Source: Verrucomicrobiota bacterium (lineage in GTDB: Bacteria > Verrucomicrobiota > Verrucomicrobiia > Verrucomicrobiales > Verrucomicrobiaceae). From it: 64,000 nucleotides of DNA. The stretch spans positions 124,001 to 188,000 of the forward strand of contig JAFLEI010000006.1 of NCBI GenBank assembly GCA_017301975.1, given 5' to 3'. Both the position numbers and the translations under genes were made by a program. Below the pieces are notes generated by a model. That model was not told the DNA's origin. It worked only from the letters and a program-made list of their open reading frames with translations, and made no database searches. Shown in pieces: positions 45,039-60,404 of the stretch. The first letter of the stretch is position 1, and every line of letters starts with the position of its first letter.

Positions 45039-46340
45039 TCACCAGCAAATCCCCTCATACTGCCAAGCAAGGGTGTCGAGTTCCCTCCAGCCATTCACAT
45101 CGATCACGATCTGATCTGGACGGGCGGATTCCTTCAAGACCTCGAGAGCTACGCATTTTTGGGAAACCACGATCACGTCACTTGAATGTAGTACATCAAG
45201 CACTTCCAACTTCAAAAGTTGCGCCAAGTGAGGCATGCGAGCCTGAATTTGCTGCTCGTTGGCACCGATGAGGCGGGAGAGATTGATGTGGGGATCGTAG
45301 ATCCGCAGCTCATAGCCACGGCCGAGCAGGGTCTCCGCCGCACTGACCATGGGGCTGCCGCGCAGGTCGTCCGTTTCCGCCTTGAAGGCGAGTCCCAGAA
45401 AGCCGATTCGGCGCTTCGCTTTACTCTCAATCAGGCTCACGAAGAGGTCCTGATGCGCGGCATTGGTGGCAGCGGTGTTTTCGAGCAGAGGCAGGCTGAG
45501 ATTTTTATGACGGGCGAAGGACTTCAGCGCAGAGACATCCTTTGGCAGGCAGGAGCCGCCGAAAGGGTTGCCGGGCTTCATGTAGTAGCGGGAGATGTTC
45601 AGCCGTGTGTCGGCACACAAGACTTCCATCACGCGGGTGCCGTCCTCCTCCAAATGCTTGCACAGGCGGCCTATCTCGTTAGCAAAGCCGACCTTCAGGG
45701 CATGGAAGTAGTTGCAGGAGTATTTGATCATTTCGGCACCTTCCCAACGGAGCAGTTCCGGCTTGCCGCCGAGCAGGTCGGCAATGTCGGCCGATGGCGC
45801 TGAGGTGCCGTCTTCTGTGCCGATGACGCTGAGAGAGGGGGATTGAAAGTCTCTGACCGCGGTGCCTTCCCGCAGAAACTCCGGACAGTAATAGATGGTC
45901 ACCTGACCGGATTTGACGAGGTCGGCAAAGACGTCTGTGCAGATCTTGCGGGTGCTTCCGGGCAGCATGGTGCTGCGAAAGAGAATGGCGTGCTTCTTGG
46001 CCGATTTTTTCAAGGCTTCGGCGATTTGGCCGGAGACATGGAGAACGTAGCTCAGATCGAGGCTGCCGGTGGGCAGGGAAGGGGTGCCGACGCAAATGAT
46101 GCTGGCCTCCGACTGCGCGACGGCCTCGGCGGCATTCATCGTCGCGGTGATATGGCCGGAAGCGGTGGCTGTTTTAAGAAGTTGGTCGAGTTCGGGCTCA
46201 ACAATGGGGGAGAGGCCGTCGTTGAAGGCGGCGACCTTCGATGTATGGAGATCGACGCCGATAATGAAGTGACCTTTCTGCGCGAGGCATGCAGCAGTGA
46301 CTGCTCCAACGTAACCGAGGCCAAAAACGGAGATATTCAT
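45039..46340 (-). CDS. UDP-glucose/GDP-mannose 6-dehydrogenase
   Basis: 433 residues. Oxidises a nucleotide hexose twice to the uronic acid. The NAD-binding FGLGYVGAVTAACLA is at residues 6-20. The catalytic Cys264 is in GNPFGGSCLPKDVSALKSF, and the C-terminal LGLAFKAETDDLRGSP is characteristic. The pattern fits GDP-mannose 6-dehydrogenase (AlgD) slightly better than UDP-glucose dehydrogenase, but the donor is not certain. It would supply an acidic sugar to the polysaccharide. It lies 94 bp downstream of the GT39-like gene on the same strand. Confidence 0.9.
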   Translation of the reverse strand: MNISVFGLGYVGAVTAACLAQKGHFIIGVDLHTSKVAAFNDGLSPIVEPELDQLLKTATASGHITATMNAAEAVAQSEASIICVGTPSLPTGSLDLSYVLHVSGQIAEALKKSAKKHAILFRSTMLPGSTRKICTDVFADLVKSGQVTIYYCPEFLREGTAVRDFQSPSLSVIGTEDGTSAPSADIADLLGGKPELLRWEGAEMIKYSCNYFHALKVGFANEIGRLCKHLEEDGTRVMEVLCADTRLNISRYYMKPGNPFGGSCLPKDVSALKSFARHKNLSLPLLENTAATNAAHQDLFVSLIESKAKRRIGFLGLAFKAETDDLRGSPMVSAAETLLGRGYELRIYDPHINLSRLIGANEQQIQARMPHLAQLLKLEVLDVLHSSDVIVVSQKCVALEVLKESARPDQIVIDVNGWRELDTLAWQYEGICW

Positions 46341-50762: not shown

Positions 50763-51163
50763 ACTCAAGCCTGTTGACGTTAGAAAACGAGTGTGCGAGC
50801 CAGCACTTCTTTCGTGGCTTTTCAAGCTAAAGAAGCGTTGAAAGAGATGAGTGTATTTTTAGATGTCATTCTTTTCCGCACTCAGCGGAAGAGTGGGGGG
50901 CAGAAGGGATTTTTTGACGGGGACCTATGCTTGTAAAAGCCAAAATTAACCCAAAAAGGTTGGATATTCGCAAATGCTGGCTACAGACTGTTTCCGCCCC
51001 AGTTTATTTATACTGTAGTTCCAGCGAATCGTTCGAAAGACCATTCACCAAGGGCGGTAGCATTGTTTAATCTTGTGATAGCTCTGAATCAAAATCATAT
51101 TTATTTTCGTGATCAAGGATGCCTGGCGAAGAGCTTGGTGCAGTCCATCAATCTACTCTTTGC
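50763..51163. other. AT-rich intergenic stretch, promoter region of the wecB operon
   Basis: Four hundred bases without a recognised gene, clearly AT-richer than the flanking genes. The wecB-to-MaoC/SDR operon must start here. I see several short T- and A-runs but no clear promoter pair or terminator hairpin. Confidence 0.55.
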
Positions 51164-52300
51164 ATGAAGGTTCTTTGTGTATTTGGTACGCGGCCCGAGG
51201 CGATCAAGTTGGCTCCGGTGATTCGTGCGTTGAGAGAAACTCCGGGCATTGTGTGCCGGATTTGTTTCTCAGGACAACATCGAGAAATGGGCTTGAAGGC
51301 GCTGGGTGCGTTCGATCTCAAGCCTGATGTGGTTCTCGATACGATGCAGCCGGGACAGTCGCTCGCATCACTTACCGCGCGCTTGCTGACGTCGCTTGAC
51401 GCTTTGTATGAGCAGGAACGTCCGGACTGGATCATTGTGCAGGGGGACACGACGACGGCCATGACAGGAGCGCTTGCCGCCTTCTACCGCCGCATTCGAA
51501 TAGCTCATGTTGAGGCCGGCCTGCGAACGTTGGATCGTTTTTCGCCATTCCCTGAGGAGATCAATCGTGTGTTTATCAGCCGGATTACGGACCTTCATTT
51601 TCCACCCACTGCAGAGGCAGCGGAGAATCTACGGAAAGAGGGCATCAGCGACGACATTAATATTGTCACAGGCAACACGGTCGTTGACGCGGTCTTGTGG
51701 ATGAAAGGACGACTGCCGAAAGAGCCACCTGAGGGGTTCGATGCAGAACTGATGGATGGCGGACGCCTGATTTTGGTGACCTGTCATCGGAGGGAATCCT
51801 TTGGAAAACCCATGGAGAATATTTGTGACGCGCTACTGGCCCTAATAGAGCGTTTTGATGATATTCAAATCTTGTTTCCGGTGCATCCCAATCCCGTTGT
51901 GAAGCAATTGGTTCTGGCAAAGCTGGGGGGGCAAAAGCGGATTTCGTTGGTGGAACCGCTGGACTATCTGCCTCTGCTGTGGTGCATGAACAAGGCGGTT
52001 TTGATTCTAACGGACTCAGGGGGAATTCAAGAGGAGGGCCCCTCGTTTGGAAGGCCCATCTTGATTTTAAGAACCACCACGGAGAGGCCTGAAGCCGTGA
52101 CGGCAGGCTGCGCAGAACTTGTGGGAACAGACATCCAAACAATTGTTGAACGTGCGTCGGTTTATCTCCTGAATGAAGAGATCTGTCGTGACTTGGCAGG
52201 ACGCCCCAGCCCTTTCGGGGATGGGCGTGCAGGTGAAGCAATTTCAAGAGCCTTGTGTCATGCTTCAAAAGTCTTAGATGATGACCGCTGCGCTAAATGA
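51164..52300 (+). CDS. wecB: UDP-N-acetylglucosamine 2-epimerase (non-hydrolysing)
   Basis: 378 residues from the ATG at 51164. Interconverts UDP-GlcNAc and UDP-ManNAc. VFGTRPEAIKLAPVI at the N-terminus and SGGIQEEGPSFGRPILILRT near residue 285 are family signatures. HRRESFGKPMENI is also typical. A frame to 51119 adds 15 residues without counterpart. UDP-ManNAc is the donor used by WecG/TagA enzymes, so this gene fits the GT26-STAS protein encoded at 30553. It overlaps the next gene by 23 bp. Confidence 0.95.
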   Translation: MKVLCVFGTRPEAIKLAPVIRALRETPGIVCRICFSGQHREMGLKALGAFDLKPDVVLDTMQPGQSLASLTARLLTSLDALYEQERPDWIIVQGDTTTAMTGALAAFYRRIRIAHVEAGLRTLDRFSPFPEEINRVFISRITDLHFPPTAEAAENLRKEGISDDINIVTGNTVVDAVLWMKGRLPKEPPEGFDAELMDGGRLILVTCHRRESFGKPMENICDALLALIERFDDIQILFPVHPNPVVKQLVLAKLGGQKRISLVEPLDYLPLLWCMNKAVLILTDSGGIQEEGPSFGRPILILRTTTERPEAVTAGCAELVGTDIQTIVERASVYLLNEEICRDLAGRPSPFGDGRAGEAISRALCHASKVLDDDRCAK

Positions 52301-53258
52301 TTGTATCGAGAGAACAAAGCTCATGCTCCCTCCCTCCATCCAGTGGCCTGACGGCAAAAAATTCGCTTTCACCATCTTCGATGACACCGATGCATCCACG
52401 GTGGCAAACTCGGCGCCGGTCTATGCACTGCTCCGAGATCTCGGCTTCCGGACGACCAAATCAGTCTGGGCCCTCGAGGCGACGGAGCCGCCGGTCGTCG
52501 TTGGAGGGGCAACTTGCGCGGAGGGCGATTACCGCGCATGGGCCTTGCAGCTTCAGGCCGAAGGATTCGAGATTGGCTTTCACAACGCGTGCTGCCATCA
52601 CTCGAAGCGCGAGCGCACCCTGGCCGGGCTGCGGCGCTTTGAGGAGATTTTTGGCCATCCGCCGCGTTCGATGGCGAACCACACCGGCTGCCGCGAAAAC
52701 TTGTACTGGGGCGCTGATCGAGTCACAGGATTAAACCGTTTGATCTATCAAGCGGCGACGCTCGGACGCAAAAGCAGATTCAAAGGCCATGTCGAGGGCG
52801 ATGAATACTTCTGGGGCGACATCTGCAAGGAGCGCATCACCTATGCGCGCAATTTCGTCTTTCCGGACATCAACACACTCCGAGCCTGCCCATTGATGCC
52901 GTATTACGATCCTTTGCGACCGTGGGTTAACGAGTGGTACGCCTCGTCCGAGGGCGGCGTGCTCACTTCATTCCTCGAAACGCTTTCCGAAGAGAATCAA
53001 GACCGCCTCGAAGCCGAGGGCGGCGCTTGCGTGATGTATGCCCATCTCGGGAAATTTTTCCGCAAGGATGGCGTCGTTAGTGCGCGATTCCGTGAGTTGA
53101 TGGAACGGCTTGCCTCAAAGAACGGCTGGTTTGCGCCGGTATCCGCCGTGCTTGATCACATCGTTGCGCAGCGCGGCCATCACACCCTGACCGATGCCGA
53201 GCGCCGCCAGCTCGAGCGGCGCTGGCTCCTGCACAAATTCACACGAGGCGAGAGCTGA
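52278..53258 (+). CDS. Polysaccharide deacetylase-like protein
   Basis: 326 residues. FAFTIFDDTDASTVANSAPV resembles the first NodB-fold motif (TFDDG). GFEIGFHNACCHHSKRERT supplies His residues at the position of the second motif, and SMANHTGCRENLYWG is further on. This fits a carbohydrate esterase 4-like TIM barrel with divergent motifs. The start may be 52278 (overlapping wecB by 23 bp), 52281 or 52323. Removal of an N-acetyl group from a sugar would prepare the amine for another acyl group made by the genes downstream; that is inference. Confidence 0.7.
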   Translation: MMTAALNDCIERTKLMLPPSIQWPDGKKFAFTIFDDTDASTVANSAPVYALLRDLGFRTTKSVWALEATEPPVVVGGATCAEGDYRAWALQLQAEGFEIGFHNACCHHSKRERTLAGLRRFEEIFGHPPRSMANHTGCRENLYWGADRVTGLNRLIYQAATLGRKSRFKGHVEGDEYFWGDICKERITYARNFVFPDINTLRACPLMPYYDPLRPWVNEWYASSEGGVLTSFLETLSEENQDRLEAEGGACVMYAHLGKFFRKDGVVSARFRELMERLASKNGWFAPVSAVLDHIVAQRGHHTLTDAERRQLERRWLLHKFTRGES

Positions 53259-53270
53259 TCTGGAAAAGCA

Positions 53271-54386
53271 ATGAAGCTGCAGATCGTCCGCTATGAAGAC
53301 CGACATGTGGAGGCTGTGAAACGCCTCAATGCGCGGCTCGCCGCCGCCGGGGAGACGTGGAGCTTTCCTGAGCGCACGCAGAGCAACTGGCTTCCCGACA
53401 CAGCCAGCGAGGACATCATCGAGCACTACTACATCGCCGAAGAAGGCGATGAAGTGCGAGGCGGCTACATTTTGAAATGGCAGCCTTTTTGGATCGAAGG
53501 CCGCACAGAGCGAGTCTGCACGCTCTACCTTCCGCTCTCCGAAGGCATCATCAATCAGCGTTACAAGCTCCTCGGCCTTATCCTCATCCGCGACGCGCTT
53601 ACGCGAAACCCGCTCGCGTTTTGCCTCGGCATGGGTGGCGCGGCTCGTCCGCTGCCACAGACTTTGAAAATGCTGGGCTGGCAGGTCCATGATGTGCCAT
53701 TCTTTTTCATGCCTTTGTGCGCCGGGCGCTTCCTCACCAATCTGCAACCGCTGCAAACCAAGCCATGGAAACGCATGGCTGTGCGAGTGGCATCAATCAC
53801 GGGAGTCGCGGCTGCCGGACTGGCGCTCGTGAAAATGTGGCGTCGAGCTCCGGGCAAGGTGCGACGCGCTACGACGATGGAAGTGGTCGAGCTGTTTGGA
53901 GATTGGGCCGATGAGCTGTGGCAGGAAGCACGATCAAACTTCTCGCTCTGTGCCGACCGAGCGCGCGTGAATCAGAACCGCATCTACCGAGACAGCGGGG
54001 GTGAAAACATCCGCGTGCTCGTGCGGAGCGAAGGAAAACCCGTCGGCTGGTTTGTGGCGCGCTGCCGTGCGATGAGCGGGCACAAATACTTTGGCAACAT
54101 GCGTGTTGGCTCGATCATCGATGTGCTCGCACACCCGGGACACGAGACACACGTCGCCTGGGCTGCGCGCCAGTTTCTCAACGCGCGGGGCGCAGACATC
54201 ATCGTCTGCAATTTGCAGCATAAGGCATGGCGCGATGCCATCCTGTGCGCCGGCTTCTTCAAGGGGCCGAGCAATTTTGCTCTTGCCGCATCGCCCAAAC
54301 TCTGTGCGATGCTGCCACAGTATGCGGGGCGCATCGAGCACGCCCAATTCATGCGCGGCGATGGCGAGGGACCGACGCATCTTTGA
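53271..54386 (+). CDS. GNAT-like acyltransferase, unknown acceptor
   Basis: 371 residues. The N-terminus LQIVRYEDRHVEAVKRLNAR is typical of GNAT folds. The segment LYLPLSEGIINQRYKLLGLIL fits the acyl-carrier-binding loop. A second, similar half (about 225-360, with VGSIIDVLAHPGHETHVAWA) suggests a duplicated fold. A hydrophobic helix (ITGVAAAGLALVKMW) lies near residue 170. Since an acyl carrier protein gene is two genes downstream, an ACP-bound acyl donor is plausible. It follows the deacetylase gene by 12 bp. Confidence 0.65.
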   Translation: MKLQIVRYEDRHVEAVKRLNARLAAAGETWSFPERTQSNWLPDTASEDIIEHYYIAEEGDEVRGGYILKWQPFWIEGRTERVCTLYLPLSEGIINQRYKLLGLILIRDALTRNPLAFCLGMGGAARPLPQTLKMLGWQVHDVPFFFMPLCAGRFLTNLQPLQTKPWKRMAVRVASITGVAAAGLALVKMWRRAPGKVRRATTMEVVELFGDWADELWQEARSNFSLCADRARVNQNRIYRDSGGENIRVLVRSEGKPVGWFVARCRAMSGHKYFGNMRVGSIIDVLAHPGHETHVAWAARQFLNARGADIIVCNLQHKAWRDAILCAGFFKGPSNFALAASPKLCAMLPQYAGRIEHAQFMRGDGEGPTHL

Positions 54387-54409
54387 CCGCTATTTCTCAA
54401 TCATCAGCC

Positions 54410-56221
54410 ATGCCCGTGCCGCCTGCAGACGTCGCAAAATTGTTCGCCACTTTTGATGGCAGTACCGCCGCGTATCAATCGCTTTCGCGCACGCTAGATG
54501 CTGCGACTGCGGAGTGGCCTGAGCTGCGTGTCGCCGTGCTTTCCACCTGCACGGCAGAAGTGTTGCAACCGTTCCTCGTCGTCGAGGGCGCGCGGCGCGG
54601 CCTGCGGCTCAAGCCGTGGTTTGGACCGTTTGGCCAGATTGAGCAGCAGGTGTTGGATCCGCGAAGCGCCCTCTTCGCTTTTAAGCCCGATATCGTCTGG
54701 GTTTTCGCACGCCTCGAAGACTGGGCTGAGCGCGAGTTGCTGCAATTCGCCGCGCTAGAGGACGCTGCGCGCGCGGAGTTGCGTGATTCCATCATCAAAC
54801 GCATCACCGCGGTCACCGAAGCCGCTCGGCGAAACACAAGCGCGAGCCTGCTGTGGTGCAACTTTGCACCACCTCGTCTGCCTGGAGTGATGAGTGCGCC
54901 GGGTTTGTGCGATGGGCGGTCGCTGACTGCTTTTTGCAATGCGCTCAATGAGGAGATGAGCCGTGCCATTGCACTCGTGGCGGGTGCCTGGACATTCGAC
55001 CTCGCGCGCACGATTTCACAATGCGGTGCGAGCCGCTGGACCGACTCGCGCATGGCATTGCTCGCCCGCATTCCGTTTTCCACCGATGGGGCCATCGCCC
55101 TTTCCCGAGCTCTGACACGAGTGCTGCGCGCAGTACTAATGCCGCCGCGCAAATGTCTCGTGCTCGATCTCGACAATACGCTCTGGGGCGGTGTGGTCGG
55201 TGAAGTGGGCGCTGCCGGAATCAAGCTGGGCGACAGCTTCCCGGGCAACGCTTACGTTGCTCTTCAAAAAGCCGCGCTCGCCCTGAGAAATCGCGGCGTT
55301 GTTCTTGCCGTTGCAAGCAAGAACAACGAAGCCGAGGCTCTCGAAGCTCTCGCGCATCCCGATGGCATTCTGCGGCCTGGCGATTTCGCGGCGATGGAAA
55401 TTCACTGGGAGGACAAGGCCACGAGCCTGCGCCGGATCGCGAGCAAGCTGAACATAGGCACGGACGCGCTCGCATTCTTCGACGACAGCGCAACCGAGCG
55501 CGAATGGGTGCGTGCGCAGATGCCCGAGGTCGGTGTGATCGAGGTGCCGGCATCGCCTGCCGACTACGGCGCGGCTCTCGAAGATTCCGAGATGTTCGAC
55601 GCGCCGCTCATCACGGTGGATGATTTGCGACGAGCCGAGATGTATCAGCAGCAGGAGCAGCGCCGCGCGTTGCAACAGACGAGCGGCAGCGTTGACGATT
55701 TCCTGATGAGCCTCGACATGAAAGTTCAGGTGGGCCCGGTGAATACGGAAACTATGGAGCGCGTGGCGCAGTTGATCGCGAAGACGAATCAATTCAACCT
55801 CACCACCCGGCGCTACACGCACGCGGAGCTGTCTTCGATGATTGATGCGGGAGCGGTCGCGCTGTGGATGCGCGTTACGGATCGCTTTGGCGACAACGGT
55901 CTCACTGGTGCGATCATCGCCCTGCCGGAAGACGACACGGGCCTGTGGCGCGTCGATACACTGGTGCTAAGCTGCCGAATCATTGGCAGAAACATTGAAA
56001 CGGGACTGCTTGGCGTGCTCTGCAGTGAAGTCGCCAAACGCGGCGCGCACACTTTGAAAGGCGAGTATCTGCCGACCGCAAAGAATGAGTTGGTGAAGGA
56101 TTTCTATCCGAGGCACAAGTTCGCCGCCGATGATTCGGACGGCCGTCTATGGCGCAGATCGCTCTTGCCGCTCGACAGTTTCACGATTCCCAGCTACCTG
56201 CATCTCACTTATGCCGAATGA
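54410..56221 (+). CDS. FkbH-like HAD-superfamily (HAD-IIIC) protein
   Basis: About 603 residues. The C-terminal part is the FkbH fold: HAD motif I LVLDLDNTLWGG with Asp253 and Asp255, then VLAVASKNNEAEA and FFDDSATERE. A GNAT-like end follows, with TNQFNLTTRRYT, RIIGRNIETGLLG and KNELVKDFY. FkbH-type proteins load glyceryl or related three-carbon groups onto acyl carrier proteins or take part in acyl-group modification. The N-terminal 240 residues are an SGNH-like region typical of longer FkbH homologues. I chose the ATG at 54410; a TTG at 54383 is possible. It overlaps the ACP gene by 11 bp. Confidence 0.88.
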   Translation: MPVPPADVAKLFATFDGSTAAYQSLSRTLDAATAEWPELRVAVLSTCTAEVLQPFLVVEGARRGLRLKPWFGPFGQIEQQVLDPRSALFAFKPDIVWVFARLEDWAERELLQFAALEDAARAELRDSIIKRITAVTEAARRNTSASLLWCNFAPPRLPGVMSAPGLCDGRSLTAFCNALNEEMSRAIALVAGAWTFDLARTISQCGASRWTDSRMALLARIPFSTDGAIALSRALTRVLRAVLMPPRKCLVLDLDNTLWGGVVGEVGAAGIKLGDSFPGNAYVALQKAALALRNRGVVLAVASKNNEAEALEALAHPDGILRPGDFAAMEIHWEDKATSLRRIASKLNIGTDALAFFDDSATEREWVRAQMPEVGVIEVPASPADYGAALEDSEMFDAPLITVDDLRRAEMYQQQEQRRALQQTSGSVDDFLMSLDMKVQVGPVNTETMERVAQLIAKTNQFNLTTRRYTHAELSSMIDAGAVALWMRVTDRFGDNGLTGAIIALPEDDTGLWRVDTLVLSCRIIGRNIETGLLGVLCSEVAKRGAHTLKGEYLPTAKNELVKDFYPRHKFAADDSDGRLWRRSLLPLDSFTIPSYLHLTYAE

Positions 56222-56456
56222 CACCATCGAAATACGATTGCGCCGCGTTTTTTCGCAGGTGCTTGGCCTGCCCGAGGAAACCGTGGACGACGCCACAGCG
56301 CCTGACAACACAGCGCAATGGGACTCGCTCACGCACCTGCGCCTTGTGATGGCCGTCGAGGAGGAGTTTGGCGTTACGATTCCCGCCGAGCAGATCATGG
56401 ACATGATTTCCTTCAAGATCGCGCGGCTGATGGTCGAGGAGCAGGCTGCTTCCTAG
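56211..56456 (+). CDS. Acyl carrier protein
   Basis: 81 residues. The phosphopantetheine attachment site is Ser39 in QWDSLTHLRLVMAVEEEFGV, the usual DSL motif. The helical layout matches a stand-alone acyl carrier protein. It is not the housekeeping AcpP, because it lies between an FkbH-like and a MaoC/SDR gene. Its start is the ATG at 56211, inside the end of the FkbH gene, and the next gene starts 3 bp after its stop, so the three are translated together. Confidence 0.9.
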   Translation: MPNDTIEIRLRRVFSQVLGLPEETVDDATAPDNTAQWDSLTHLRLVMAVEEEFGVTIPAEQIMDMISFKIARLMVEEQAAS

Positions 56457-56459
56457 CGA

Positions 56460-57632
56460 ATGAGCGCGACCTTTCACACGGGGCAAATTTTCACCGAGCG
56501 CTTCACTCTTGATGCGGAGGTTGTGCGTCGCTTTGCGGAATTCTCTGGCGACACGAACCCGCTGCACGTCGATGCCGGGGAGGCGCGCGAGTATGGATTT
56601 CCTCACGCAGTGGCGCACGGCGCGATCCAGGTCGCTTATCTTTCGAAGCTGATAGGCATGGTTGTGCCAGGACCAGGTGCACTGTGGACCGGCCACCGCA
56701 TCGAATGGCTGCGGCCCGTCTTCGTTGGCGATGAGATCGAGCTTCGTGTGGAAGTAAAATCATGGTCTGCGGGCGCAAGCCTGCTGCAATTGAATTTCAG
56801 TGCGCAGAATGTGAAAGGAGAACTCGTCATGAATGGGGAAGCAGAAGTGAAAGTCGGACAAAAACTCGCGGCAGTGCGGCAGACAGACGCCGGGCAAGCT
56901 CGTGTATCTCTGGTGACAGGAGCCTCACGTGGAATCGGCGCCGAGATCGCCCGGACACTCGCCAGTCGTGGACGGGTCGCGTTGCATTATCACACGAATG
57001 CCGCAGCTGCGAAGGCCGTGGCCGATGAGATTCACGCGGCTGGAGGAGAGGCCGAAATTTTCGCCGCTGACCTTTCCCAGGCGGGAGCCGGCACGACGCT
57101 CCTGCGCGATGTTGCTGCAAAGTTTGGCCGCCTTGACATCGTGGTGCACGCCGCGACGACGCCCATCTCGACGACCACGCTTGCGCAGACGACTGCATCG
57201 CAGTGCGCTGCGTTCTGGCAGATCAATGTCGCCGCAGCGCTTGAGCTTCTGCAGGCGGCCACGCCATTGATGTCTGGCGGAAAATTTGGTCGCGTCATTT
57301 TTATGGGCACCTCGTATCTCTTTGGTGCGCCACCATCTGGAATGGCCGCCTACATTTCCGCGAAACAGGCGCTCTGGGGCATCACGCGCGCCGCATCGCT
57401 CGACCTCGCACCGCAGGGGATCACCGTGAACATGGTGTCGCCTTCGCTGACGATCACCGATCTCAGCGCGCATGTGCCTCAACGGATCAAGGAAGTCGAG
57501 GCGATGAAAAACCCTTGCCGCCGCCTTGCCACCCCCGCAGATTCCGCAGCCGCCGTCGCGTGGCTCGCCTCAGATGCGGCAGCTTTCATCAACGGGATCA
57601 ATTTGCCTGTGACTGGCGGTCCGGTAGTTTGA
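56460..57632 (+). CDS. MaoC-like dehydratase / short-chain dehydrogenase fusion
   Basis: A 390-residue fusion. Residues 1-132 are a MaoC/R-hydratase hot-dog domain with the catalytic Asp31 and His36 in SGDTNPLHVDA, and AHG at 52-54. Residues 146-390 are a short-chain dehydrogenase: LVTGASRGIGAEIA at 151-163, Ser284, and Tyr297-x3-Lys301 in AAYISAKQAL. These two activities are FabG- and PhaJ-like and would act on an acyl group bound to the ACP encoded just upstream, interconverting 3-keto-, 3-hydroxy- and enoyl-acyl forms. It ends the operon; the next gene converges on it. Confidence 0.9.
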   Translation: MSATFHTGQIFTERFTLDAEVVRRFAEFSGDTNPLHVDAGEAREYGFPHAVAHGAIQVAYLSKLIGMVVPGPGALWTGHRIEWLRPVFVGDEIELRVEVKSWSAGASLLQLNFSAQNVKGELVMNGEAEVKVGQKLAAVRQTDAGQARVSLVTGASRGIGAEIARTLASRGRVALHYHTNAAAAKAVADEIHAAGGEAEIFAADLSQAGAGTTLLRDVAAKFGRLDIVVHAATTPISTTTLAQTTASQCAAFWQINVAAALELLQAATPLMSGGKFGRVIFMGTSYLFGAPPSGMAAYISAKQALWGITRAASLDLAPQGITVNMVSPSLTITDLSAHVPQRIKEVEAMKNPCRRLATPADSAAAVAWLASDAAAFINGINLPVTGGPVV

Positions 57633-57647
57633 TCCCCTTGTGGATTA

Positions 57648-58433
57648 TCAGCTTCGCTTACGTGCAAGGATGGCAATTACCCCGGCAAAATGTGAAACAC
57701 CGGGGATGAGGAGCAGGCATTGATCCAACCAGCTAAAAACGCGTTCGGTCCGGTGAAACCAGGAGTCAGGAAACACCCGCCGCAGTCTGCTCAAGAGATA
57801 AAAGTGTCGCTCTTCCTCGATCACAAATCGTTTCCCAATATGCGTAACCTCTTTTGCACTGAGTTGTCGTTCGTCAGGACTCACGTCTTTCTCGACCGCC
57901 GATCGATCACGCAGCCACTGAAGTGTCTGCGAGTATGCGACAGGTTCCAGAAGCGCGACGCGACCGCCTGGACATAGAAGCCGCTCAAACGTATTGAGCG
58001 CATCATCAATAGGCATGTGATGGACGACCGACATAGCGAGGATGGCATCGAAGGCTCCGTTGGTCAGGTTCACACTTGCACCATCCGCTACCATGAACTT
58101 CACGTTGTCGGAGACGCCCTCCAACTGAGCCCTCTCCCGCGCGACTTCGATCAATTCGGGCGAAACATCCAGACCCGTGACACGGAAACCGAGACGTCCC
58201 AGGCGGCAGGCCATCTCACCGCTGCCGCAACCGAAGTCGCAAATGTGTCTGGGGTTGTGCAGCTTTAAAAAATGAATCACGCACTCCGTGTAGCGTGTGC
58301 GCCAGCGCGCACAATTCTGGTAACGGTCTATAATGTCTTGTGGCGTGGGGGCCAGATTTTCACGTTCACGCTGGGCAATCAAGACATGGTAGGCAATCTC
58401 ATTATCCAGTCGTTGTTCATTAGTGATGGACAT
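57648..58433 (-). CDS. Class I SAM-dependent methyltransferase
   Basis: 261 residues. HICDFGCGSGEMACRLGRLG is the SAM-binding motif, preceded by a helical N-terminus (NCARWRTRYTECVIHFLKLH). GLDVSPELIEVA is the strand-two end and ILAMSVVHHMPIDDA the post-II segment. GGRVALLEPVAYSQTL is also typical. It converges on the MaoC/SDR gene with 15 bp between stops, and is divergent from the acyltransferase gene at 58528. The substrate is probably a sugar or lipid of the locus. Confidence 0.85.
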   Translation of the reverse strand: MSITNEQRLDNEIAYHVLIAQRERENLAPTPQDIIDRYQNCARWRTRYTECVIHFLKLHNPRHICDFGCGSGEMACRLGRLGFRVTGLDVSPELIEVARERAQLEGVSDNVKFMVADGASVNLTNGAFDAILAMSVVHHMPIDDALNTFERLLCPGGRVALLEPVAYSQTLQWLRDRSAVEKDVSPDERQLSAKEVTHIGKRFVIEEERHFYLLSRLRRVFPDSWFHRTERVFSWLDQCLLLIPGVSHFAGVIAILARKRS

Positions 58434-58527: not shown

Positions 58528-59607
58528 ATGATAAATGTGCAGAATAAGCGAATTCGTTGTTTCGATACCCTGAGATTTTTTGCGGCCGTCATTGTGCTGG
58601 TGAATCATGCGAGTTGGTTTTTCCCCACTAGTCTGAATTGGATCTTGCATAATTGGGGAATCTGCAACGCAAAGTCAGCCGTGGCTTTCTTCTTCGTGCT
58701 AAGCGGGCTGGTCCTGCACCAAAGCGGGCTAGGTGCCGGGCCGACAGGGGTATCTATCGGCCGATTTCTGGCGCATCGCTGGTTCCGGATATATCCGCTG
58801 TACTACGTGTCATTGATCCTGGGCGCGGCGGCTCTGTGCCTGCCTTTGGAAACGGTTGCCGCTCTGCGAACAGAGGTCACCGCCGCGCCGGTCGTTCTGG
58901 CGCACAATCATTGGGATTTGGCGCAATGGATTAACCATCTGATGTTGATCACTCCGGGGCTTGACTTTGATTTCATCAACCCACCGATCTGGACCCTGGC
59001 GGCTGAAATGCGCATTGCGCTGGTTTTTCCCGTCCTGTCGTTCGTGGTGTCCAGACTTTCGATGGGGGCGGGGGGGGCGTTGCTGGGTATTTCTTTCGCG
59101 GCAGCGCCAGCAATGGGAGCGATGACTGTGCCCACAATCGCATTGATTCCGCTCTTTATCGGCGGCGCGTGGCTGGCCCAGCATCGGCGGCAGTTGCCGC
59201 ACTTGCCGCAAGCCGGCTGGTTGGTCGTCCTGACGGTGGGAGTTGTGTTATATGTCCTCGCTCCCTGGCTTTGCCCCCCGAGCAGCATTCTGCATCTGTA
59301 TGTGGCGGGCTTTGGCAGTTTGCTTATCCTTCCGGCCACCGAGAATTGCCAGGCAGTGAGACAGTTTCTTGAGGCGCGGATACCGGTGGTATTCAACGAC
59401 ACCTCATACGGAATCTATGTTCTCCACTTTCCCCTGCTGCTAGGTGTCGCGTACGGGTTCAACGCTGCCGGCCTTCCTGCTTGGCTGTTCGTTCCCATCA
59501 GCATTTTACTCACGTTTATCGTGGCCGTGATTTTCAATCGTCTGGTCGAGATGCCAATGATTGCCCTGGGCCGGAGGCTGACGCGGAGTCGACCCACCAG
59601 GATTTGA
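58528..59607 (+). CDS. Acyltransferase-3 (OafA-like) membrane protein
   Basis: 359 residues with about ten membrane helices. The N-terminus IRCFDTLRFFAAVIVLVNHA carries the catalytic His of the family. SAVAFFFVLSGLVLHQSG is the second conserved segment, and DTSYGIYVLHFPLLL the late one. These enzymes O-acylate (usually acetylate) polysaccharide on the extracytoplasmic side. The same family is represented only by a broken remnant at 29103. The gene stands alone between two methyltransferase genes. Confidence 0.9.
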   Translation: MINVQNKRIRCFDTLRFFAAVIVLVNHASWFFPTSLNWILHNWGICNAKSAVAFFFVLSGLVLHQSGLGAGPTGVSIGRFLAHRWFRIYPLYYVSLILGAAALCLPLETVAALRTEVTAAPVVLAHNHWDLAQWINHLMLITPGLDFDFINPPIWTLAAEMRIALVFPVLSFVVSRLSMGAGGALLGISFAAAPAMGAMTVPTIALIPLFIGGAWLAQHRRQLPHLPQAGWLVVLTVGVVLYVLAPWLCPPSSILHLYVAGFGSLLILPATENCQAVRQFLEARIPVVFNDTSYGIYVLHFPLLLGVAYGFNAAGLPAWLFVPISILLTFIVAVIFNRLVEMPMIALGRRLTRSRPTRI

Positions 59608-59681: not shown

Positions 59682-60404
59682 ATGTCGTCGCTAGGCCGAG
59701 TCTTTTTACCCCGATATCTTCATGAGCGCCTGCAGGTGGATCGTTACCCCATCCTGCGCTTCATTCGCGCCGAAGCGATTCCTCTTATGAAGGCGGGAGT
59801 AAAAGTGCTGGATGCCGGTTCTGGCCGGCTTCCCGAACAGACGCTGCGCGGGGAGATTTTGGCCACTGGCGCAGAACTGCACACACTGGATTTCTGTGCC
59901 GGAGAGGGAGTGGACTTTGTGGGTGATGTCTCCGCCATGCCCTTTGGGGCCGACAGCTACGACATTGTGCTCTCTACACAGGTGCTGGAGCATGTGAAGG
60001 ATCCCGCCGGCGTCTGCGCCGAGATGGCCCGCGTCCTGAAACCGGGCGGTCATTTGTTCTTAACGACCCCGCAGTCATCCCCGATCCACAACGAGCCGTG
60101 GAACTTCTTCAATTTCACCCACTACGGGCTTGAACTCCTGTTTCAGAATGCCGGACTCTCTGTGGTGAAGAAAGATCCGCAAGGTGGTCATTTTGCGTTG
60201 CTTGCCTTCATGCTGCATTGGACCGTGCGCGTCATTGAGCGAAAGAAAATGTCCCCGCTCTTGAAGGTGCCGCTTATGCTGGCATCCAAGTTCATGTTTG
60301 GTTTTGTGACCAAGATCATTCTGCTCTGGTTGGACTCATGGGACAAGGAACCGACCAACACGCTAGGCTGGAACTTTCACGGGCAAAAGCCTAAAGGAGT
60401 GTGA
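59682..60404 (+). CDS. Class I SAM-dependent methyltransferase
   Basis: 240 residues. KVLDAGSGRLPEQTLRGEIL is the SAM-binding motif; LHTLDFCAGEGVDFVGDVS and IVLSTQVLEHVKDPAGVC follow, with ARVLKPGGHLFLTTPQSS. The C-terminus has a hydrophobic stretch (FMFGFVTKIILLWLDSW). It is on the same strand as the acyltransferase gene, 74 bp after it. A perfect hairpin follows its stop. Confidence 0.85.
   Translation: MSSLGRVFLPRYLHERLQVDRYPILRFIRAEAIPLMKAGVKVLDAGSGRLPEQTLRGEILATGAELHTLDFCAGEGVDFVGDVSAMPFGADSYDIVLSTQVLEHVKDPAGVCAEMARVLKPGGHLFLTTPQSSPIHNEPWNFFNFTHYGLELLFQNAGLSVVKKDPQGGHFALLAFMLHWTVRVIERKKMSPLLKVPLMLASKFMFGFVTKIILLWLDSWDKEPTNTLGWNFHGQKPKGV

Follow-up and report, generated by a model that had tools for sequence, protein, structure and literature searches.

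A stretch of 64,000 nucleotides from a Verrucomicrobiota bacterium (GCA_017301975.1, contig JAFLEI010000006.1, positions 124,001 to 188,000; hereafter the window) carries, at positions 51164 to 57632 of the window, a block of six genes encoding a UDP-GlcNAc 2-epimerase (WecB), a deacetylase-like protein, a predicted N-acyltransferase, an FkbH-family loader, a dedicated acyl carrier protein (ACP), and a fusion of a MaoC dehydratase with an SDR ketoreductase. The reading that we favour, at somewhat better than even confidence, is that this block is an acyl-swapping cassette in a surface-polysaccharide locus, with a lactyl group as the product of the acyl-building steps. The particular set, in which a distinct deacetylase-like family, a tandem GNAT protein, and a MaoC-SDR fusion are combined with FkbH-ACP, is new here, as is the sequence evidence, suggestive of modularity, that members of unrelated families replace one another in the positions around FkbH-ACP.

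From the gene set, its motifs, its conservation, and its genomic context, we infer each chemical step as follows. As its family membership suggests, FkbH would take 1,3-bisphosphoglycerate and leave a dephosphorylated glyceryl group on the ACP. Glyceryl-ACP is a beta-hydroxyacyl thioester, and the MaoC domain may take off the beta-hydroxyl to give 2-hydroxyacryloyl-ACP, the enol of pyruvyl-ACP, which the SDR domain would reduce, most likely to lactyl-ACP; this conversion of glyceryl-ACP to lactyl-ACP is our best guess on chemical grounds. WecB would supply or channel an N-acetylamino sugar (ManNAc), the deacetylase-like protein would expose the amine on the sugar, and the tandem-GNAT protein would move the ACP-borne acyl group onto the freed amine. 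O-methylation, of either the acyl group or the sugar, is the probable role of two linked methyltransferases.

Enzyme features of the six genes

The first-pass annotation, a reading of the sequence made earlier, had described six intact, tightly packed genes, and this description holds: six open frames without internal stops were found on the + strand where it had placed them, separated by 3 to 23 bases or slightly overlapping, and they recur together in the genus. Its labels for wecB, FkbH, the ACP, and the hydratase-ketoreductase fusion were also borne out, all of them passing family cut-offs. The wecB gene (51164-52300; the longest frame starts at 51119) scored 453 bits against the TIGR00236 equivalog of non-hydrolysing UDP-GlcNAc 2-epimerases (cut-off 210), the enzymes of UDP-ManNAc supply. 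FkbH (54410-56221, with 54410 as the best start), which has a HAD phosphatase and an acyltransferase domain, scored 284 bits against TIGR01686 (cut-off 147), and FkbH_N was also above cut-off; it keeps its HAD and acyltransferase motifs, with DLDNT, SKNN, HWEDK, KTNQFNLTTRR, and SCRxIGR (including the cysteine of the latter) all retained. The ACP (56211-56456, 81 residues) was above the cut-off of the PP-binding family PF00550 and has a WDS motif with Ser39, which is invariant in nine homologues. In the fusion protein (56460-57632), both domains exceeded their Pfam cut-offs: the first (MaoC_dehydratas) has a GDxNPxH-type motif, FSGDTNPLH, at residues 28-36, with D31 and H36 invariant in the family, and the second (adh_short_C2) has TGASRGIG at 153 and YISAK at 298, with Y298 and K302 kept.

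The gene between those for the deacetylase-like protein and FkbH (53271-54386) encodes a protein without a Pfam or NCBIfam match. Its AlphaFold2 model (pLDDT 73, pTM 0.70) gave a best Foldseek E value of 1.1e-10, the matches being N-myristoyltransferases over the whole length, with a VIA Z of 20.0 to 1nmt over 307 residues at a root-mean-square deviation of 4.5; the glucosamine N-acetyltransferase 5kf1 was also among the top structural matches. A GNAT fold, in tandem arrangement, is predicted for this protein with good confidence, in support of the acyltransferase-like label that it had been given from the sequence. Further downstream in the same locus, a separate protein of 762 residues (L002:12018-14306) contains GNAT domains, with two stretches matching Acetyltransf_6.

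In G+C content, the five genes that follow wecB (59-61%) are close to the window mean of 58.1%. The value for wecB is lower (53.3%), and the 400-base stretch ahead of it has 43.6%; copies of wecB with 66% identity head the block in relatives of the genus.

Conservation of the block and exchange of its parts

The array is not due to chance, as the block was found again in four further genomes of the genus. As found by tblastn of the window proteins against fetched loci, the order wecB-deacetylase-gnat-FkbH-ACP-MaoC/SDR is identical in G021 and G002, the block is divided between two contig ends in G029, and in G027 only the portion from FkbH onward is present, at a contig end. Identities within the genus were 66% for WecB, 80-86% for the deacetylase-like protein, 60-67% for the tandem-GNAT protein, 57-61% for FkbH, 71-76% for the ACP, and 66-67% for MaoC-SDR. 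Conservation is thus by far the highest for the deacetylase-like gene, with the other five at 57-76%. Two genes of these relatives, gnat in G021 (L027:4325-5363) and the deacetylase-like gene in G029 (L025:13449-14374), each appear to be split in two frames, by a frameshift or an assembly error.

Outside the genus, the deacetylase-like protein was found in 2 of 388 phylum genomes sampled, namely the source genome and G363, a member of another family. G363 was picked without regard to FkbH, and yet gnat, a glyoxalase-like gene, and FkbH adjoin its deacetylase-like gene; next to this set lies a 98-residue frame with an ACP-type GLDSL motif, and the locus also contains a GT4 glycosyltransferase and a Wzy-type protein (ligase). 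A Lysobacteraceae locus, reached by way of FkbH, has the order FkbH-ACP-gnat-deacetylase. The deacetylase-like proteins of G363 and the Lysobacteraceae are 42-43% identical to that of the window, and gnat, FkbH, and ACP stand beside the gene every time. The gnat gene was also found behind FkbH-ACP in loci of Terriglobia and Gemmatimonadaceae; at three other sites in the phylum, where gnat was weakly matched, no FkbH stood beside it, and a scan of viral contigs for the deacetylase-like protein gave no match.

The slot next to FkbH-ACP is filled by transferases of unrelated families: hexapeptide transferases in L030 and L031, AAC(3)-like proteins in L051 and L054, and GNAT proteins in L042 and L043. 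Within the genus, G033 and G019 have FkbH-ACP-hexapeptide transferase-MaoC/SDR, and G005 and G010 encode a fusion protein in which an AAC(3)-like domain is joined to a DUF4910/DUF2172 domain of the M28 type (frames L035:14049-16175 and L036:6572-8794). This fusion gene overlaps FkbH in G010 and lies 3 kb from FkbH in G005, where a hexapeptide transferase gene overlaps FkbH instead. In Comamonadaceae loci, an AAC(3)-like gene overlapping FkbH is followed by ACP and MaoC/SDR. Judged by its DUF2172 annotation, the DUF4910/DUF2172 domain of the fusion is probably of the Cj1295 type of Campylobacter jejuni. Varied transferases around one FkbH-ACP core are consistent with a role as an acyl donor for sugars, and this variety, together with the fusion, supports by analogy a putative system of the Campylobacter kind in which an acetyl group is removed and a custom acyl group is added.

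Several results weigh against the acyl-swapping reading. The deacetylase-like protein (52278-53258, with a start probably near 52323) matched no Pfam or NCBIfam model, CE4 included, and the second histidine of the canonical CE4 motif HxxxH is missing at its canonical spacing in distant homologues. Its best PDB match (E 0.4) and its hhalign profile match to CE4 proteins (probability 8.5%) were insignificant, and its AlphaFold2 model, made from a two-row alignment with few usable homologues, had a pLDDT of 37. No published MaoC-type enzyme acting on glyceryl-ACP was found in the literature, and a search for a precedent from bryostatin for the step from glyceryl to lactyl gave none. Because G363 and L085 hold the deacetylase-gnat-FkbH-ACP set without MaoC-SDR, the lactyl step would not be part of a universal pathway. 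The acceptor sugar is putative, as are the acyl group and the deacetylase chemistry; with these three qualifications, the scheme of building an acyl group on the ACP, deacetylating a sugar, and transferring the acyl to it, which had been put forward in the first-pass annotation, is still the best-supported reading of the block. The label of a deacetylase-like protein is retained as a weak assignment drawn from context and from remote similarity of the NodB/DUF2334 kind (DUF2334 was matched only by the homologue L085, at a sub-threshold 20.1 bits where the cut-off is 26). Invariant in the family are DDTD (with the DD pair at 35-36), H102, NH135, and H256.

The loci without MaoC-SDR bear on a different explanation, which we judge rather unlikely: that glyceryl (or O-methylglyceryl) is the acyl group in question, as in the pseudaminic acid of Campylobacter, and that MaoC-SDR is otherwise used, on a side substrate or in proofreading. 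The methyltransferases that accompany the cassette fit this explanation, as does the di-O-methylglyceroyl group that C. jejuni produces (PMC3068675). However, MaoC-SDR, at the identity given above, lies directly behind the ACP in all complete genus copies. Moreover, when the loci of the 80 nearest FkbH homologues from named genomes were surveyed, MaoC was found beside FkbH in 27 loci, with an adjoining SDR in 11; loci with both include those of Comamonadaceae, Paludibaculum, Omnitrophota, Nitrospinaceae, and Clostridiaceae. Because MaoC-SDR is conserved and adjoins FkbH-ACP, a fusion protein idle on the FkbH product would be hard to explain.

The same persistence of MaoC-SDR next to FkbH-ACP in distant bacteria makes it improbable that the fusion yields a 3-hydroxyacyl group (e.g., 3-hydroxybutyryl) from an intermediate of primary fatty-acid metabolism, with FkbH providing a second acyl group or acting as a phosphatase. 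The MaoC and SDR sequences are generic for an (R)-hydratase and a FabG-like reductase, and 3-hydroxyacyl groups are common on amino sugars, both as this explanation would have it, but the block is without a ketosynthase, a ligase, or a second ACP.

FkbH loci in glycan and polyketide settings

As a rule, FkbH-ACP pairs are taken to belong to polyketide pathways, and the first-pass annotation had named a polyketide neighbourhood of the same genes elsewhere as evidence that would speak against its proposal. Such a neighbourhood was looked for by homology search with the genome's own ketosynthases, an earlier motif regular expression having missed the positive controls. It was found that a ketosynthase was present at none of the 80 nearest FkbH loci and at none of the four genus copies, and that it was detected in 3/3 positive controls, which were polyketide-linked FkbH loci of the window's order (L123-L125). 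In a quick tree, the window FkbH grouped with the genus copies and then with three other copies from the genus or order and three distant ones (99% support), and the polyketide-linked FkbH proteins of the order formed a separate branch.

These results also bear on whether FkbH-ACP might serve, in trans, a polyketide synthase encoded elsewhere in the genome, which we consider very unlikely. The source genome (G000) does encode two ketosynthases, the domains of which (C12:248240-248995 and C3:17075-17830) lie in very large frames of 2602 and 2947 residues; these large polyketide-type synthases are positionally unrelated to the block. The FkbH of the block is the only one in the genome, sits in a glycan locus on another contig than both ketosynthases, and in every close relative with the block stands beside the deacetylase-like and acyltransferase genes; the empty ketosynthase search at the 80 loci and the separate branch of the polyketide-linked proteins argue in the same direction.

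The 80 closest homologues are spread over many phyla of bacteria and also include archaeal ones (Thaumarchaeota, Asgard, and others), and the neighbours that recur beside them, as assigned by Pfam, are hexapeptide transferases, MBOAT proteins, GT4 and GT2 glycosyltransferases, DegT, NeuB, nucleotidyltransferases, sugar transferases, and Wzz. With a broad list of glycan families, at least two families were found in 29 of 61 FkbH loci and 5 of 20 control stretches (p 0.12), a weak enrichment. With a stricter list, chosen afterwards, the values were 41/61 against 5/20 for at least one family (p 0.0015) and 27/61 against 2/20 for at least two (p 0.0065). The enrichment is only indicative because the outcome depends on the list and all controls come from the window's phylum. 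The occurrence of FkbH-ACP in a polysaccharide locus had been called unusual in the first-pass annotation. This view is not upheld, because no ketosynthase lies near the 80 FkbH genes and many of them stand amid glycosyltransferase, NeuB, or DegT genes; FkbH with glycan genes is common, and the flagellar-glycan locus of C. jejuni holds an FkbH-domain gene, cj1302 (PMC7099621).

Two other neighbours recurred. A glyoxalase/VOC-family protein (PF13669) stands beside FkbH in 15 loci and in L122 (e.g., L042:9382-9837 and L122:11790-12209). A holo-ACP synthase (PF01648) was found at L053:9470-9919, with similar frames in L047, L048, L049, L055, L059, L060, L066, and L081; these are mainly archaeal loci (Thaumarchaeota, Asgard, Nano-, and Micrarchaeota), several of them with MaoC and glycan genes. 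Archaea are mostly without ACP-based fatty-acid synthesis, and a dedicated ACP system for archaeal glycans would for that reason be notable.

Locus context and related systems

Downstream of the block lie two SAM methyltransferase genes, conserved members of the cassette that accompany it in the genus: one at 57648-58433 on the - strand, with a copy of 65-70% identity beside the block in four genus relatives, and one at 59682-60404 on the + strand, with copies of 75-76% identity in G002, G027, and G029. Between them, an Acyl_transf_3 membrane acyltransferase gene (58528-59607, + strand, PF01757) is an optional member, to which G021 and G002 have a 30% identical gene at the corresponding position. 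RmlC is encoded directly downstream of this region. Upstream of the block are GT4 and GT2 glycosyltransferases, several methyltransferases, and a nucleotide-sugar dehydrogenase (45039-46340, - strand; TIGR03026, 335 bits) that has a homologue near the block in relatives. Because this dehydrogenase was not above the WecC equivalog cut-off, ManNAcA is not claimed. Beyond the window lie genes for a member of the rhamnosyl O-methyltransferase family, a DegT aminotransferase, a GT2 glycosyltransferase, a Wzx-type flippase, and a NeuD/PglD-like acetyltransferase that scored below its NCBIfam cut-off. Judged by these gene families, the surroundings of the block are those of a polysaccharide locus.

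For a glyceryl form of the scheme as a whole, C. jejuni offers a precedent by analogy. There, the aminopeptidase-domain gene Cj1295 is required for the 2,3-di-O-methylglyceroyl group on pseudaminic acid, a glyceryl-derived acyl that takes the place of an acetyl on an amino sugar; prior removal of the acetyl group by Cj1295 was proposed by the authors (PMC3068675). As in the block, a putative N-deacetylating enzyme, the N-acetyltransferase-annotated Cj1296/7, and an FkbH gene stand in one surface-glycan locus (PMC3068675, PMC7099621). Biochemical proof of the role of cj1302 was not found in the literature. In contrast to the block, the deacetylase is of the unrelated aminopeptidase (M28-like) family, and the sugar is pseudaminic acid. 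An ACP and a methyltransferase are further genes of the C. jejuni locus, in which we know of no MaoC-SDR. It is the MaoC-SDR fusion that makes the block a variant of the Campylobacter-linked system.

Other systems share parts of this arrangement. In the rhizobial Nod factors, an amino sugar is deacetylated by NodB and then N-acylated by NodA from a dedicated ACP (NodF), but the acyls are long fatty acyls made with the NodE ketosynthase, and the likeness is one of logic. The methoxymalonyl- and glyceryl-ACP modules of FkbH, OzmB, Mad7, and Mad14 deliver their product to a polyketide or tetronate synthase, after two oxidations in the methoxymalonyl case; the block is without a polyketide synthase and without an FkbI or FkbK equivalent, and its partners are instead the dehydratase-reductase fusion, the GNAT protein, and the deacetylase-like protein. 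Flagellin glycosylation islands of Enterobacteriaceae and Aeromonas likewise have ACP and reductase (FabG) genes in glycan loci, whereas LuxC/LuxE and AMP-ligases, not FkbH, are reported among their acyl-supply genes (PMC4875605, PMC7874193). A literature search for a possible link to WbmS of Bordetella turned up the name only in unrelated senses.

Taken together, these results suggest that the making of acyl groups for surface sugars is the task of a large share of the FkbH family, and that deacetylase and acyltransferase are combined with it in a modular way. A bolder proposal, which we advance tentatively and with the balance tilted against it, is that the block yields N-lactyl (or N-2-methoxypropionyl) amino sugars by a route fed from glycolysis, and that FkbH-ACP is a general glycan acyl-donor module of bacteria and archaea, with its polyketide use as a side branch. 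If true, a set of enzymes that can be tested would be at hand for the rare glyceroyl, lactyl, and methoxypropionyl groups N-linked to bacterial and archaeal glycans, and caution would be called for in naming such loci polyketide clusters.

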